From Bacteriovoracaceae bacterium (lineage in GTDB: Bacteria; Bdellovibrionota; Bacteriovoracia; Bacteriovoracales; Bacteriovoracaceae), in assembly GCA_016786485.1 (NCBI GenBank), contig JAEUWD010000021.1:1-63418 (forward strand): a DNA stretch of 63,418 nt. Reading direction: 5' to 3'. Of the stretch, positions 29,068 to 35,734 are shown piece by piece. The position numbers and the translations under genes were made by a program. The notes under the pieces are model-generated. The model did no database searches and was not told where the DNA came from. It worked only from the letters and a program-made list of their open reading frames with translations. Numbering within the stretch: position 1 is the stretch's first letter; every line of letters begins with the position of its first letter.

Positions 29068-30120
29068 CTACCTTAAAATGAGCATCGCATCTCCATAGGA
29101 GAAAAAGCGATATTTATGTTCGATGGCCAATTGATAAAGTTCTAATGTTTTTTGACGTCCAATCAGTGAACTTACCAGCATCAGCAGCGACGAACCTGGA
29201 AGATGAAAATTGGTGATCAAACCTTGAATCGACTTCACTTCTTTTCCAGGATGGAGAAAAATTTGGGTACTACCATTTTCCGGAACGACAAAAGTTCCAT
29301 TTTCATAGCAACTCTCAAGCACTCTGAGCGACGTCGTGCCAACGGCAATCAGGTTTTTCTGCTGAATTTTTTGTAGATTTTCAGTATCGATGGCAAATGA
29401 TTCCGAATGCATTTTATGTTCTAAAATATTTTGTGTTTTGACTGGCTGAAAAGTTCCCATGCCCACGTGCAAAGTCACAAAAGCTTTTTTAATTCCTTGG
29501 CTTTCAAGTTTGTTGAATAAATCTTGAGTGAAGTGTAAACCCGCGGTAGGAGCAGCGACCGAGCCTAATTCTTTAGCATAAATAGTTTGATAATCTTCAC
29601 GATCTTTTTCATCCGCGATACCGTTTCGAATGTAAGGCGGAATCGGAATTTGGGCTTTGTCATTTAAAAAATTTAAAAAGGCTTCCCTTTCACAATCGAA
29701 CTTCACACGAAATGTTCCATCGGGTGTGACTTCAGAAATCTGGGCCTTCATATCCCCAAAAAAGAACTCATCGCCCACTTGTTTTTTGCCACCAGAACCA
29801 ATCATCACCGGATACGTATTTTGAGCATCGGCCATAAGTGAAAGGATAAAAAACTCGGCCTTGCCACCGGTTGATTTCTGACCAAAAAGACGACAAGGGA
29901 AGACTTTGGACTGATTCATCACTAAGGTGGAATTTTGAGGGAGATAATCCCCTAGATTTCGAAAGCTAGTATGAGCAATTTCACCCGTTTGAGCGTTATA
30001 AACCATAAGTTTACTCCCATCACGGCCGGCCACAGGGCGATCAGCGATCAGTTCCGTTGGGAGGTCGAAAAGGTACGAACTCAGGTTAAAATCTAAATTT
30101 TTTTCTATGTGTCTTGTCAT
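29068..30120 (-). CDS. queA: S-adenosylmethionine:tRNA ribosyltransferase-isomerase
   Basis: 350 residues from the ATG at 30120; an in-frame ATG at 30138 is the other choice, and neither has a Shine-Dalgarno. QueA moves the ribosyl group of SAM to preQ1 in tRNA, making epoxyqueuosine. Marks: SYLFDLPTELIADRPVAGRD, a VMNQSKVFPCRLFG segment, SVAAPTAGLHFT and LHPGKEVKSIQGLITNFHLPGSSLLMLVS. First gene of the operon that continues into tgt, yajC, tatA and secDF. Confidence 0.96.
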   Translation of the reverse strand: MTRHIEKNLDFNLSSYLFDLPTELIADRPVAGRDGSKLMVYNAQTGEIAHTSFRNLGDYLPQNSTLVMNQSKVFPCRLFGQKSTGGKAEFFILSLMADAQNTYPVMIGSGGKKQVGDEFFFGDMKAQISEVTPDGTFRVKFDCEREAFLNFLNDKAQIPIPPYIRNGIADEKDREDYQTIYAKELGSVAAPTAGLHFTQDLFNKLESQGIKKAFVTLHVGMGTFQPVKTQNILEHKMHSESFAIDTENLQKIQQKNLIAVGTTSLRVLESCYENGTFVVPENGSTQIFLHPGKEVKSIQGLITNFHLPGSSLLMLVSSLIGRQKTLELYQLAIEHKYRFFSYGDAMLILR

Positions 30121-30167
30121 TGACCAGGGGTGTAACATAAAATAAACGATGTGTCAGGAGGTTCACG

Positions 30168-30458
30168 ATGAACTCGATATTTCTACTCATTTTAAGCTTT
30201 TATGCCTATGCCGACTTAGAAATCGATCAAAAATTACATGAAGAAATGCAGTTTTTAGAACAAGAAGAAGAACTTAATGAAATATCTTTAACAGGACCAG
30301 CAGCTGTTTTAAAGCCTACGCAACCTCAAGAAGAAATCCTTGATTTGGAAAAACAATATCTAAGCGATGAAGTGGGTTCAACTTTGGCCGCACCTAAACG
30401 TCGCCGCCAAGCCGAGGAGACACCAGAATCAAGTATTATGGACGGTCCCAGTCTCTGA
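30168..30458 (+). CDS. Small secreted acidic hypothetical protein
   Basis: 96 residues. A short signal peptide (1-15, ending AYA) is followed by a strongly acidic region (30-60, many Glu) and a basic patch (KRRR) near the C-terminus. No family recognised. A near-ideal Shine-Dalgarno (AGGAGG) precedes the ATG, which favours a real gene. The last 30 bases overlap the convergent gene for the ParA partner. Confidence 0.65.
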   Translation: MNSIFLLILSFYAYADLEIDQKLHEEMQFLEQEEELNEISLTGPAAVLKPTQPQEEILDLEKQYLSDEVGSTLAAPKRRRQAEETPESSIMDGPSL

Positions 30459-30740
30459 TTCGGTCGCTCCTGACTGAAATCCCCCTAGCCACGCTTCCAC
30501 CTGATCCATAAGCCCATCAATAAATTGCATCACGGCTTGAAACATTGGATAAGTCTGAATGCTTTCAATTAAGGTTTGAAGAATCTGTAGCAGTGTCGCG
30601 AAAGTTTCTTCGAGGTTGAATTTTTTTACCACAAAATCGATGAGACTTTTCACTTCTTCCACCACATTCGTTTTTTCATCTACCATATAAAGTGGGTTCT
30701 TTTTCTTAGCTGTTTTTTTTCTGGTTTTTTTCTCGGTCAT
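30429..30740 (-). CDS. Small protein with basic N-terminus coupled to a ParA-like ATPase
   Basis: 103 residues, not recognised. The first 15 residues are almost all Lys, Arg and Thr. They are followed by two hydrophobic helical stretches (about 27-52 and 55-90, LIDFVVKKF and LLQILQTLIESI) and a polar tail. The start overlaps the parA-like stop by 4 bases, so the two are made together. Partners that stimulate ParA/MinD ATPases often use a short basic N-terminal peptide, so a role as ParA activator or cargo adaptor is a fair guess. It overlaps the opposite-strand gene by 30 bases. Confidence 0.7.
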   Translation of the reverse strand: MTEKKTRKKTAKKKNPLYMVDEKTNVVEEVKSLIDFVVKKFNLEETFATLLQILQTLIESIQTYPMFQAVMQFIDGLMDQVEAWLGGFQSGATESETGTVHNT

Positions 30741-31594
30741 ACAAGCTCCTGTTCAATATGTTGGGCCATACTCAGAAATTGTTCCTGTAATGGACGATAG
30801 TCTTTGGCTTGATAATCAAAAACACTTTTTTTCTGAGAAGATGATTTCACCAATTGCACGCGATTACCAAATTCTGCAAAAACTTTGCCCTGTAAATCTT
30901 GGCGTATGAGATCAAAATCTCCCACCGTTTGTTTACGACGATTATCCACTAAATTTGGGATATAACCCAAAATTTTTGGTGAGGTCGTAATTCCCATTTC
31001 TTCAATATCTCCGAGCACATTATGGAAATGTGAGAGACCTTTTTGTGAGAATTGATCCGGTTGAAATGGCACTAATAATCCATCGGTCGCGCATAGAATA
31101 TTCACCACCACTAAGCCCAGCGTCGGTGGGCCATCGATCAGAATGAAATCATACTGACTCTTAAGTGAACTTTTCTCAATCAGCTTTTTGAGAATGAGTT
31201 GTCTCGGAGCAACCACTCCGGCCACACTTAATTCGAAACCTGAAAGCTCTTGTCCGGCAGGTAAAATATCGATAGAAACTTTTTGAAATTTTTTTGTGAC
31301 AATCACTTCATCCACAATAACTGGCGTATGCAGTGGCTTCAAATCTTTTAAGGAATTAATCAGCAAATGGTAAATATGAAAATCCAGTTCATTGCTATCA
31401 ACACCAAAGAGCAAACTTAAATTGGCCTGAGGATCCATATCGATACATAAAACCTTATGACCACGCTCGGCCAATGCCCGTGCCACATTGAAAGTCATCG
31501 TGGTTTTTCCGACTCCACCTTTTTGATTTAAGACAGAAATCACTTTTCCCGTTGAATTTTGTGCAGATGATTTTTTAAAACTGAAATTTAGCAT
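30737..31594 (-). CDS. ParA/Soj-family ATPase without parB
   Basis: 285 residues from the ATG at 31594, preceded by AAGGAG; an in-frame start at 31702 is unlikely. The deviant Walker A motif KGGVGKTT lies about 30 residues in, Walker A' follows in LCIDMDPQANLS, and Walker B is LIDGPPTLG. Such ATPases bind DNA or membrane as dimers and position chromosomes, plasmids, chemoreceptors or protein machines. No parB or parS-like site lies nearby; instead a small basic protein is coupled to the 3' end. Chromosomal Soj is usually beside gidB/parB, so this is more likely an orphan positioning ATPase. Confidence 0.88.
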   Translation of the reverse strand: MLNFSFKKSSAQNSTGKVISVLNQKGGVGKTTMTFNVARALAERGHKVLCIDMDPQANLSLLFGVDSNELDFHIYHLLINSLKDLKPLHTPVIVDEVIVTKKFQKVSIDILPAGQELSGFELSVAGVVAPRQLILKKLIEKSSLKSQYDFILIDGPPTLGLVVVNILCATDGLLVPFQPDQFSQKGLSHFHNVLGDIEEMGITTSPKILGYIPNLVDNRRKQTVGDFDLIRQDLQGKVFAEFGNRVQLVKSSSQKKSVFDYQAKDYRPLQEQFLSMAQHIEQELV

Positions 31595-31873: not shown

Positions 31874-34800
31874 ATGAATTTGAAGAAAATTTTTAGCCTA
31901 TTAATTCTAAGTTTGGTGGTAGCTTGTTTACCAAAAGAGCAAGACAATGTCTCTTGTCCAGACGGTCAAGTTTTCGATACCGCGTTTAGAAAATGTGTGG
32001 TGGATTCGCTCGCTAGTAATAATCCTCCGATCGTTTTTGGTAATCAAACTTTTAATGCCTTCGTTGAAGCCGCTGCTAACCAATCTGATACCTTTGCATT
32101 TACTATTGGCGCCGCGACTGATGATGATGGTGATTCACTTCAATATATTGTAGTAGTGCCCCCGACTTACGGAACACTTGATAGTTGTATGGACCAAAAT
32201 CCTACCACTACACCAGATCTGACTTGTAACTATATCGGAAATGCAAATTTTGCAGGAACTGATACATTCACGTACAAAGTCAATGACGGAAAAGCGAACT
32301 CTCCGACTAACGCCACAGTTACTATTACCGTAACTGGTAGTAACGATGCTCCCACTTATTCTTATGTGAGTTCTTCTGGAGTAACTAGTGTCACAGGCTT
32401 AGGGACAGTCGGAACACCGTACAATATTGATGTTATTGAAGGTAACACCATGGCACTTTCGATTGCGGTCGATGAAGGTGGCTTCTCTGATGAAAATATT
32501 CAAAGTACTTCAATAACTTCAAATATCACCACTGCCGGAACTTATGGTTTAGTTGGTGCTAATATTGGCTATACTTGGGGTGTTTCAACCGGAACAGCGG
32601 CTGCGCAATTTAATTTTAGTGATGGCACCACTTCAGGCAATGCAAATAATTTAGTTATCTCAATTCCATTTGATAAACGTTTAACTGCCGGAGAAACTCT
32701 GGCCTTCAATATTGTAATTAGCGACGGGCTGACAACATCAACCATGTACTTCACGATTGATGTGAGTGCAGTGGATGATCCGATTGTTTTAGCTGCAGAT
32801 ACAGCAGGAACAACACCGGAAGATACAGCAGCTGCTCCAGTGTTATCAATTACGGCCGCAAGTGACCCTGATAGTGCGGCTTCTGTTATTTATTGTATTG
32901 ATTCAACAGTTCCAGGGGCGGCAGGAACACTTGCTTCGTGTGCCGATGCTGATGTTCCAGGTACTGGGACGGCAGGACTCGATTGTGATTTTACTCCAGC
33001 GGCAGATTTCTGCGGAATTGAAACGTTTACCGTTTACGCTTGTGATATTGCCGATGTGGCTTGTCCTGGCCCAGGTGTTGGTACTTGTACCAGCGCTACT
33101 TCAACCCATACTGTGACTGTGACATGTAATAATACTGATGCGCCGGTGATTACAGCTACCAATATCAACGTTGATACCACCACAGAAAATGTCGCTAAAT
33201 CGATTACCATCAGTAAAATTGAAGATGCGACTGCCACAACCGAAAATATTGAAGTCAGTGACGTGGACATTATTGGTGCGACTCAAAGTTACAAATATAG
33301 AGTTAATTCTGCGAGCTTCTCAGATGGTGGAACACTCACAAATTGTGACATCTTAGATGCTTGGGGTACTGACCTGGCTTGTACATATACTCCTGCCACG
33401 AATTTTGCCGGTACTGAAACTTTTGAAATTGATGTGCAAGATGTGACAGGACTTTCGTCAGCTGGCGGGCCTGTTACCTTAAATATGGTCGTCATTCCGT
33501 TTAATGATGATCCAACAATCGACGCCCAACCGAATGTTTCGGTTAACGAAGGTGTGGTTGATTACAAAATAACACTCGAAATTGATGAAGGCGGCGGAGT
33601 ACCAGAAGATTGTCAAGAATTGCGAGTAGCAGTTGATGTCACCAGTTCAACCAATGCCGCTTTATTGCCTGAAGGAAATATTTCTATTTATGATTACAGT
33701 GGCGCCATTGGCGATACTGCCGACAATACAGTGAAGCCAGGTACACTCATGGCCTTTGGTGATACAACCAATAGTGGCGACGCTGCAGTGAAAGATCTCT
33801 TATTAGAAATTACACCTGTCGCTGGTGAAACAGGAACTGCTACCATTCGTGTTTATCTCGAAGATTCAGATGGAACATGTGGTTTAGGTTATACCGCTAA
33901 AACAGCTGAAAGAACCTTTACTTTCACGGTTAATCCCGTGTCGGCGCTTCATGGTGGCTGGGAAAATCTCAAGGCGATAGGGCCTCTGGTCAATAAATCA
34001 AATACTCAAATTAATTTTGGTGATGGTTATATTCAATTAAACTGGAGTGCTTTCTCAACTTCAGGAGCTTCCGTTAGTGGTTGGTATATCTACCGTGATA
34101 TTGAACCAGATGGTGATGGGCTTGATATCAATGCAGACCCAATTAACTTAGGTAGTCCTGTGGCCACGGGAACTCGCAGCTATACTGACACTGATGATAA
34201 TGCGACTAACGATTTAGTCGAAGGCCAAGTTTACTACTATAAAGTTCGCCCACTCATGAGTAACGGTTTAGTCGCTGAAACAAGTGAATCTTATTCAACC
34301 GTCCGAATGATGTATCCGCCGGCCAACTGGGTTTTTGTTCACCGCTGGGCGGTTAATAAACGCATGTGTCAGATGATGGGTAAAACTCCACTTCCATTAA
34401 AAGATTTTGGTTGTCGCTATAATGGTCCAGGTGCTTATGATGAAGGTGCCGACGTTGATACGACTGATACTTATTATCGTCTACGCAAAGACATGCTAGT
34501 CATGGCTTTTGAAGCTGGTTGTAACTACTCGCCTTCTCCAACCTGTACCGCTAGTGGTTGTATCGGAACAAGTACTCCAGGAGCTACCATAGGTGCAGAT
34601 GTCGTTTACTATAACCGTGATGATACGACTTGCTACTATGATGACCCAGGATTTACCTCAGTTGAAAGTGTTGAGAATGGCGGAAGTAATAATTTTAGTG
34701 CCGCTATCGCATCAGGACTCCTCGATCCAGCACGAATTTATTTACCACCGATAGTGAATCTCTCTAAGGATAGCGCAAATACCATTTGTAATAGTGTCCA

Positions 34801-35734
34801 ATTTTTTGATGGCACTGGTACGGCCATGACCTTACAACCAGGTGGAACCTTCACCGATGATGGGGCAAGTAAAGGTACAAGTGTCGCCAGATTGCCTTAC
34901 AAATATGAACAATCTGCATATTCTTTGTGGTACGAAAATGATCATACCGACACACAAATCAACACGCGCGAAGCTGGTCAAAATTTAGATACAGGTTCAA
35001 GTGGTTATTGTAATACAGATGATGCTAACGGCATGATCTTTGTTGATTCAGAAGTTCCAACTTCGGCCTTTGCTGACACACTACCAGCAACTGCCAGTAA
35101 CTCGGCGTTAAGTTCAGCTTTAAGAACAGGTTCTGATATCACGGCCCTTTGTGCTTCACGCTTTGGTGTGCAAGACCACGTCGGTAACGTTTCAGAATTT
35201 ATCCAAGAAGAACTAACATGTACTACCGATACTGGGTGTACCATGGTGACAAATTTTAACCAAAATCATCTTTATGATGATACCACGCCTGCCTTAACTG
35301 TTAATGCGAGCTTTAATTATTCGTACGACGGTGTGACGGGACCTTTCTCTGATGCCTCACCTGTTGACGATGTCGCTGACGGTTTACTTGCCTACTGGGC
35401 ATACTCGGCCAAAGAAAACGATGCAACTCGTTTCTCACTTCCACTTGGTTTAGTTTTTGATAATGAAGTCAATGTTGCCACTTTCATCGAATCATTAATT
35501 ATCGGAACTGGTGGAGGGCAAACCAGTCCAACTGTTTTACATTCAGACAGCTTGATTATTAATGCTGATTTTATAAATGCTGGAGCATCAAACACTGGTC
35601 AAATTTTAACTGGTGGCGACTATACTAGCGGCGGGGCAGCGGCAGGAGTTTATCACTTTGAAGCCGTTTCAGAAGATAACGCACAAATTGGACCTGAAAA
35701 AGGATTCCGTTGTGTGGTTCCGGTCGAACCTTAA
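31874..35734 (+). CDS. Giant lipoprotein: cadherin/Ig repeats, FN3-like domain, formylglycine-enzyme-like C-terminus
   Basis: 1286 residues. The lipobox VVAC (Cys 18) anchors the protein. A short Cys segment (CPDGQVFDTAFRKC) comes next. About 50-690 hold several cadherin-like/Big_9-type domains, each with DxDGD-like starts and a GTxTFTYKVNDG-like end. About 693-813 look like an FN3 domain (GWYIYRD, YYYKVRPL). The remaining 470 residues resemble a degenerate sulfatase-modifying-factor (FGE/C-type-lectin) domain: ARLPYKYEQSAYSLW, DHVGNVSEF and the GFRCVVP end. This architecture suits an exposed adhesion or binding protein. Catalysis is not implied. Followed by an outer-membrane barrel gene with its own promoter. 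Confidence 0.78.
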   Translation: MNLKKIFSLLILSLVVACLPKEQDNVSCPDGQVFDTAFRKCVVDSLASNNPPIVFGNQTFNAFVEAAANQSDTFAFTIGAATDDDGDSLQYIVVVPPTYGTLDSCMDQNPTTTPDLTCNYIGNANFAGTDTFTYKVNDGKANSPTNATVTITVTGSNDAPTYSYVSSSGVTSVTGLGTVGTPYNIDVIEGNTMALSIAVDEGGFSDENIQSTSITSNITTAGTYGLVGANIGYTWGVSTGTAAAQFNFSDGTTSGNANNLVISIPFDKRLTAGETLAFNIVISDGLTTSTMYFTIDVSAVDDPIVLAADTAGTTPEDTAAAPVLSITAASDPDSAASVIYCIDSTVPGAAGTLASCADADVPGTGTAGLDCDFTPAADFCGIETFTVYACDIADVACPGPGVGTCTSATSTHTVTVTCNNTDAPVITATNINVDTTTENVAKSITISKIEDATATTENIEVSDVDIIGATQSYKYRVNSASFSDGGTLTNCDILDAWGTDLACTYTPATNFAGTETFEIDVQDVTGLSSAGGPVTLNMVVIPFNDDPTIDAQPNVSVNEGVVDYKITLEIDEGGGVPEDCQELRVAVDVTSSTNAALLPEGNISIYDYSGAIGDTADNTVKPGTLMAFGDTTNSGDAAVKDLLLEITPVAGETGTATIRVYLEDSDGTCGLGYTAKTAERTFTFTVNPVSALHGGWENLKAIGPLVNKSNTQINFGDGYIQLNWSAFSTSGASVSGWYIYRDIEPDGDGLDINADPINLGSPVATGTRSYTDTDDNATNDLVEGQVYYYKVRPLMSNGLVAETSESYSTVRMMYPPANWVFVHRWAVNKRMCQMMGKTPLPLKDFGCRYNGPGAYDEGADVDTTDTYYRLRKDMLVMAFEAGCNYSPSPTCTASGCIGTSTPGATIGADVVYYNRDDTTCYYDDPGFTSVESVENGGSNNFSAAIASGLLDPARIYLPPIVNLSKDSANTICNSVQFFDGTGTAMTLQPGGTFTDDGASKGTSVARLPYKYEQSAYSLWYENDHTDTQINTREAGQNLDTGSSGYCNTDDANGMIFVDSEVPTSAFADTLPATASNSALSSALRTGSDITALCASRFGVQDHVGNVSEFIQEELTCTTDTGCTMVTNFNQNHLYDDTTPALTVNASFNYSYDGVTGPFSDASPVDDVADGLLAYWAYSAKENDATRFSLPLGLVFDNEVNVATFIESLIIGTGGGQTSPTVLHSDSLIINADFINAGASNTGQILTGGDYTSGGAAAGVYHFEAVSEDNAQIGPEKGFRCVVPVEP

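Follow-up and report, generated by a model that had tools for sequence, protein, structure and literature searches.

Which partner serves a ParA-type ATPase that is encoded away from any ParB is the question raised by this locus. Many bacterial ParAs are labelled orphans since their partners diverge beyond recognition (PMC10241942). The window, i.e. the whole stretch of 63,418 nucleotides analysed here, is one entire contig from a genome of 2.98 Mb, in which there are eight AAA_31-like matches, and it encodes on the reverse strand an orphan ParA-type ATPase of 285 amino acids (positions 30737 to 31594) followed by a small protein of 103 amino acids (30429 to 30740, reverse strand). The initial annotation had described the ATPase as complete, with a stop codon overlapping the start of the small gene in the four bases ATGA, and both features are read in the sequence (overlap at 30737 to 30740, reverse strand). 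On the forward strand a convergent open reading frame of 96 amino acids with a signal-like N-terminus (30168 to 30458) overlaps the 3'-terminal 30 bases of the small gene; convergent secreted reading frames resembling it seem to be present at two other loci (L014 and L021).

The ATPase matches AAA_31 (Pfam, 1e-47) and carries NQKGGVGKTT, in which the deviant Walker A KGGVGKTT with the signature lysine K25 could be read directly (residues 25 to 32; 31499 to 31522, reverse strand); it is unchanged across 24 aligned orthologs. Soj/ParA chains are the closest solved structures, and as far as sequence can tell the ATPase resembles DNA-binding Soj. An arginine invariant among the orthologs aligns with the conserved DxR arginine of solved ParA/Soj chains, and this is only an indirect pointer to an ATP-dependent dimer that binds DNA or membrane. 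The ortholog profile (A4) gave 265-498 bits in members of the family and 154 bits for the next best protein of the phylum, and by such profile scores the ATPase, which forms a family-specific ortholog group, is as restricted to the family as the small protein.

A single-sequence search recovered the small protein from 24 genomes inside the family and from none of 22 outside it, and with a profile of 19 rows it was found in 105 of 129 genomes of this predatory family, the Bacteriovoracaceae, nearly always as a single copy. Conservation of the small gene beside the ATPase had been set as a test by the initial annotation, and the gene is kept there in 38 of the 48 sampled genera. Among 291 genomes sampled across the phylum it was restricted to the family apart from one marginal match with stop codons, and relatives sought in viral contigs were not found. 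The named records of the family are from Bacteriovoracaceae/Halobacteriovoraceae, including Bacteriovorax sp. BSW11_IV and Halobacteriovorax MAGs. The small gene is a real family, vertically inherited and nearly always single-copy. One genome (G077) has two identical copies of the locus on separate contigs, perhaps an assembly duplicate, together with a decayed fragment (L165, L185 and L186 on contigs C39, C104 and C87).

For the co-occurrence count, small-protein loci were drawn from the genomes and inspected for ParA, which yielded 103 distinct small proteins. As many as 100 of these are encoded directly downstream of the same ParA ortholog and on the same strand; 79 of the 100 gene pairs overlap, 38 by the same four bases, and 99 lie within 50 bases of each other. 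Chance falls far short of producing this arrangement. Where the small protein is missing from a genome, the ParA ortholog is missing too (best score at most 117 bits versus at least 264 bits where it is present), the exception being G133, in which the small protein was not found and the contig breaks off within ParA.

Conservation in the small protein centres on a short motif close to its start. The first 14 residues of the window's protein (MTEKKTRKKTAKKK) include eight Lys/Arg, and its basic tail (residues 2 to 14, TEKKTRKKTAKKK; 30699 to 30737, reverse strand) belongs to a part that varies in length and charge. The 100 ParA-linked sequences have between one and eight Lys/Arg ahead of the motif, never zero, with a median of two, the eight of the window being the family maximum, and 81 of them have no acidic residues there. 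With such a spread the Lys/Arg run was rejected as the conserved element. Constant across the family is K-x-K-NPL[YF]VV at residues 12 to 20, with NPLYMV at residues 15 to 20 in the window (30681 to 30698, reverse strand). Among the ParA-linked sequences N and P are present in 100, L in 99, Y/F in 100, V in 92 and V/I in 100, and lysine stands one position before the N in 79 and three positions before it in 76. Averaged over the whole protein, column entropy is about 2 bits, and the motif is much better conserved than the body. Since about 20% of the rows lack the lysine directly before NP and in some the basic residues are down to one, a strict essential Arg/Lys finger like that of ParB is not established. 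From the alignment, the family starts with a modest basic stretch that the window's Lys/Arg run carries to an extreme; the hallmark is the NPL[YF]VV that follows.

Three genomes provide a natural deletion experiment. G006, G018 and G108 have kept the small protein, and no ParA ortholog was found anywhere in them. The N-termini of the three proteins (MKNKKFVITGG.., MKKIIVKKDYV.. and MNTKYYVVKKD.., respectively) are without K-x-K-NPL[YF]VV, and none of the other frames near their starts encodes NPL[YF]VV. A model of the body scores them at 66, 58 and 42 bits (58-111 for ParA-linked proteins and at most 13.7 for shuffles), and a model of the N-terminus at 2, -1 and -10 bits (15-27 for ParA-linked proteins). 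The 103 distinct small proteins are thereby divided into 100 with both ParA and motif, three with neither and none with one alone (Fisher p = 5.7e-6, not tree-corrected). The small gene of G006 directly adjoins the upstream lipoprotein gene, that of G018 has a different lipoprotein gene about 20 bases ahead of it, and queA/tgt follow; with the neighbouring genes in place, ParA has truly been lost. General divergence does not account for the loss of the motif, since the strongly diverged small proteins of G001 and G137, where ParA is present, keep NPLYVV. On the best topology of a queA tree there were three losses, only one of them forced by well-supported branches, and G074, of the same genus as G018, has kept both ParA and motif. 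The initial annotation had suggested an undescribed pair in which a basic N-terminus contacts the ATPase. The pairing is borne out, and the joint loss of ParA and motif argues for an N-terminal contact; the basic start is real in the window, but as the key element it is variable and gives way to the nearly invariant NPL[YF]VV.

In the AlphaFold2 model of the small protein (26 sequences, mean pLDDT 75, pTM 0.40) a beta-hairpin is predicted, with strands at residues 17 to 20 and 27 to 30 (30651 to 30692, reverse strand; block pLDDT 67-76), followed by a body of predicted helices at residues 33 to 40, 43 to 60 and 64 to 94 (30459 to 30644, reverse strand; pLDDT up to 93). The helices are amphipathic, with moments of 0.46-0.53, and the body may be the part for cargo or self-association. 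In an artificial read-through tandem of ParA and partner from a relative (L083, the genes being in frame by accident) both parts were predicted by AlphaFold to fold, with a hairpin pLDDT of about 87-90. Searches with the small protein gave no match above the cut-off in Pfam and NCBIfam, and sequence and fold searches of the PDB gave chance matches only, the fold query being a model with a pTM of just 0.40. No likeness of the body, in sequence or fold, to McdB, PomX, MinE or ParB emerged from Pfam, NCBIfam and the PDB.

Because the motif persists only in the company of the ATPase, we identify it as the candidate ATPase contact, and NPL[YF]VV is probably the peptide by which ParA is contacted and activated. 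The helical body would then be a ParA-independent adaptor for cargo. Selective decay of the N-terminus after loss of ParA is what an activator consisting of a peptide and a cargo body predicts, and for this reason a positioning module is proposed. We consider it likely, from the pattern of conservation and loss, that the pair forms one ParA-type positioning module, the small protein acting as its dedicated ATPase-activating adaptor with a body that holds a cargo. In such a module the ATP-bound ParA dimer would sit on nucleoid DNA, and the adaptor would dock on it through the short basic N-terminus and the adjoining NPL[YF]VV; docking would trigger ATP hydrolysis and release of ParA from the DNA, and with the helical body anchored to, or building, a cargo, this cargo would be spaced or moved along the nucleoid. 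We infer direct binding, ATPase stimulation, DNA binding and a cargo for the pair. Counting against this explanation are the predicted hairpin structure of the motif, the ParB and MinE peptides being helical, the incomplete conservation of the lysine before NP, and the small number of ParA-less cases, three.

The small protein could instead be a regulator of ParA and not a cargo adaptor, either an inhibitor or a MinE-like membrane pattern-former whose amphipathic helices lie on the membrane. Its small size, these helices and the predicted N-terminal hairpin recall MinE in outline, and the operon is without a known cargo gene; however, the body is kept in the three ParA-less genomes, where a pure ParA regulator would be needless, and the ATPase, with its resemblance to Soj, has no similarity to MinD above the general level. 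We regard this as unlikely.

Somewhat less probable still is that the pair serves the large Ig/FGE-like surface lipoprotein encoded next to it, with an operon of lipoprotein, parA and small gene positioning the assembly or export of that protein. In the window the Ig/cadherin-repeat lipoprotein gene is divergent (31874 to 35734, forward strand). Its product ends in GFRCV, presumably as in FGE-sulfatase-like domains, and no match to the FGE-sulfatase family was found in Pfam. Such a gene immediately precedes the pair in the same orientation in 36 of the 103 loci and is divergent in three (many flanks are short), and, as described above, it abuts the small gene in ParA-less G006. On the other hand, relatives of the lipoprotein are present in several pair-less genomes (G017, G022, G026, G029 and G036), and it was undetected in some genomes carrying the pair. 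Moreover, queA, tgt and secD are equally syntenic, so that the linkage may be mere conservation of gene order: of 103 loci, 70 have queA (29068 to 30138 in the window, reverse strand; then tgt, yajC, a tatA-like gene and secD) downstream in the same orientation, within the available flanks, many of them short, and this neighbourhood is housekeeping and probably not functionally linked to the pair. With synteny and no co-occurrence, a functional tie between pair and lipoprotein was rejected, and the linkage is only suggestive. Paralogs of the large lipoprotein are common in the family.

Segregation of DNA by a ParA-ParB-like system, in which the small protein would be a degenerate ParB or else bind a centromere, as the small ParG does for ParF, has a precedent in ParG of TP228, a small activator other than ParB with a basic N-terminus (PMC7993993). 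Against it, the Pfam, NCBIfam and PDB searches gave no DNA-binding fold for the small protein, the locus is chromosomal, syntenic and single-copy, and neither a repeated site nor a parS was found. The window contains no ParB_N gene; the genome has just two, one on contig C22 and one on C65, both lying directly behind a ParA of their own, i.e. it already has two ordinary ParAB pairs. A single parS-like site in the window has three mismatches, with 0.56 such sites expected by chance. The absence of ParB and parS near the ATPase, raised as a test by the initial annotation, is thus upheld; a degenerate ParB/parS as partner was rejected with both ParBs elsewhere and the parS-like site at chance level, and segregation as the role of the pair appears very improbable. 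The pair on C65 (L003) consists of a diverged ParA (GNNKGGVGKTMQ) and a ParB, possibly of plasmid or mobile-element origin. That the two genes are chance neighbours held together by conserved gene order alone is hardly credible, for although the region is syntenic in general, joint loss, gene overlap and disappearance of the motif from just those small proteins whose genomes have lost ParA all speak against it.

Orphan ParAs with comparable partners are found elsewhere in the phylum, and the closest ParAs outside the family are orphans as well. In families f8, f14, f20 and f28 (L196-L213) orphan ParAs are followed by small proteins starting with LGRNP[FL] or similar. Behind f8-type ParAs 15 of the 16 partners examined have NP[FL] N-termini, nearly always RNP[FL] (e.g. 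MSKHLGRNPFEKRK), the exception being LGRDPF; the background rate of NP[LF] within the first 30 residues is 8 of 335 open reading frames. The bodies of LGRNP[FL]-type partners look unrelated, and the five tested are without a Pfam family. In the Bdellovibrio-like genomes G211, G241 and G189 (L232-L234) one orphan ParA type has, in three of three cases, a partner of 160-172 amino acids starting with MELKKHNPLFLDSTQPVGDK and alike, that is ..NPLF[VL]DSTxPxGDK, and these pairs likely correspond to ParA2/Bd2329, the type with a link to gliding. Another orphan ParA type (L235, L236 and L238-L240), probably that of ParA1/Bd1326, is followed by proteins of 174-210 amino acids whose N-termini are rich in Lys/His (MPEIKHYDAKKKHH..) and whose C-terminal half is conserved. 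We infer that gene positions in G189 match Bd1326, Bd2331 and Bd3906 of B. bacteriovorus. The tag thus occurs as KNPL[YF]VV in Bacteriovoracaceae, NPLF[VL]DST in the Bdellovibrio-like genomes and LGRNP[FL] in other families. It is a serious but still tentative possibility, suggested by these N-termini, that [KR]NP[LF] is a general and portable ParA-docking motif of Bdellovibrionota carried on several unrelated bodies, with orphan ParAs as a class of cargo-positioning systems; the sharing of the tag may be partly convergent. If true, the partners of many Bdellovibrionota orphan ParAs, with cargos not yet described, can be found by the [KR]NP[LF] tag.

No publication on this pair of ParA and small protein was found in the open-access literature. 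The partner family and the candidate contact motif are new, and the ATPase is of a known kind. We have identified the partner of an orphan ParA by means of a near-invariant candidate contact motif together with the natural deletion experiment, and the motif provides a sequence tag by which more partners of ParAs could be found. Testable predictions are that N15, P16 and L17 matter for binding and that the body alone suffices for cargo. In predatory bacteria growth produces multinucleoid filaments, which divide into several progeny, and the pair offers a handle on how these bacteria place their internal machinery.

Characterised activators of ParA/MinD ATPases have unrelated bodies and act at the dimer interface of the ATPase with a short, basic peptide from their N-terminus, and the rest of the protein binds cargo or self-assembles (PMC7993993, PMC12204374, PMC10241942, PMC13170346). 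Among them PomZ/PomX of Myxococcus xanthus (PMC7993993, PMC13170346) shares with our pair a ParA-type ATPase without ParB, genes that co-occur, and the layout of a short basic N-terminal activating peptide with a separate part for self-assembly and cargo; PomX, however, is a large coiled-coil filament protein without sequence similarity, whereas the partner here has about 80-100 amino acids and the invariant NPL[YF]VV. McdA/McdB of Halothiobacillus and cyanobacteria likewise combines an orphan ParA with a small partner, whose N-terminal 20 residues with key lysines are necessary and sufficient for contact with the ATPase (PMC12204374), but the McdB peptide is helical and the cargo is the carboxysome, and no microcompartment is known for our pair. 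Chromosomal ParA/ParB has the same ATPase fold and motifs, and the N-terminal LG[RK]G[LI] of ParB can be aligned by eye, as a weak analogy, with LGRNP[FL] and KNPL[YF]; the difference is that our pair is without ParB domain and parS. In Bdellovibrio bacteriovorus, ParA2 (Bd2331) is also an orphan ParA followed by a gene of unknown product, Bd2329, with which it is co-transcribed, and its deletion alters gliding reversals (PMC7186360). It differs in belonging to another ParA subfamily (it is not among the matches at E<=1e-42) and in having a partner with an unrelated body. For the cargo of our pair an assembly related to envelope or motility could be guessed, a doubtful guess at present, because gliding reversals are affected by the ParA2 type, whose partner seemingly has a comparable N-terminus with NPLF. 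By analogy, we propose that the pair is a ParA with its activator like ParA-ParB, PomZ-PomX and McdA-McdB, with a partner unrelated to theirs.
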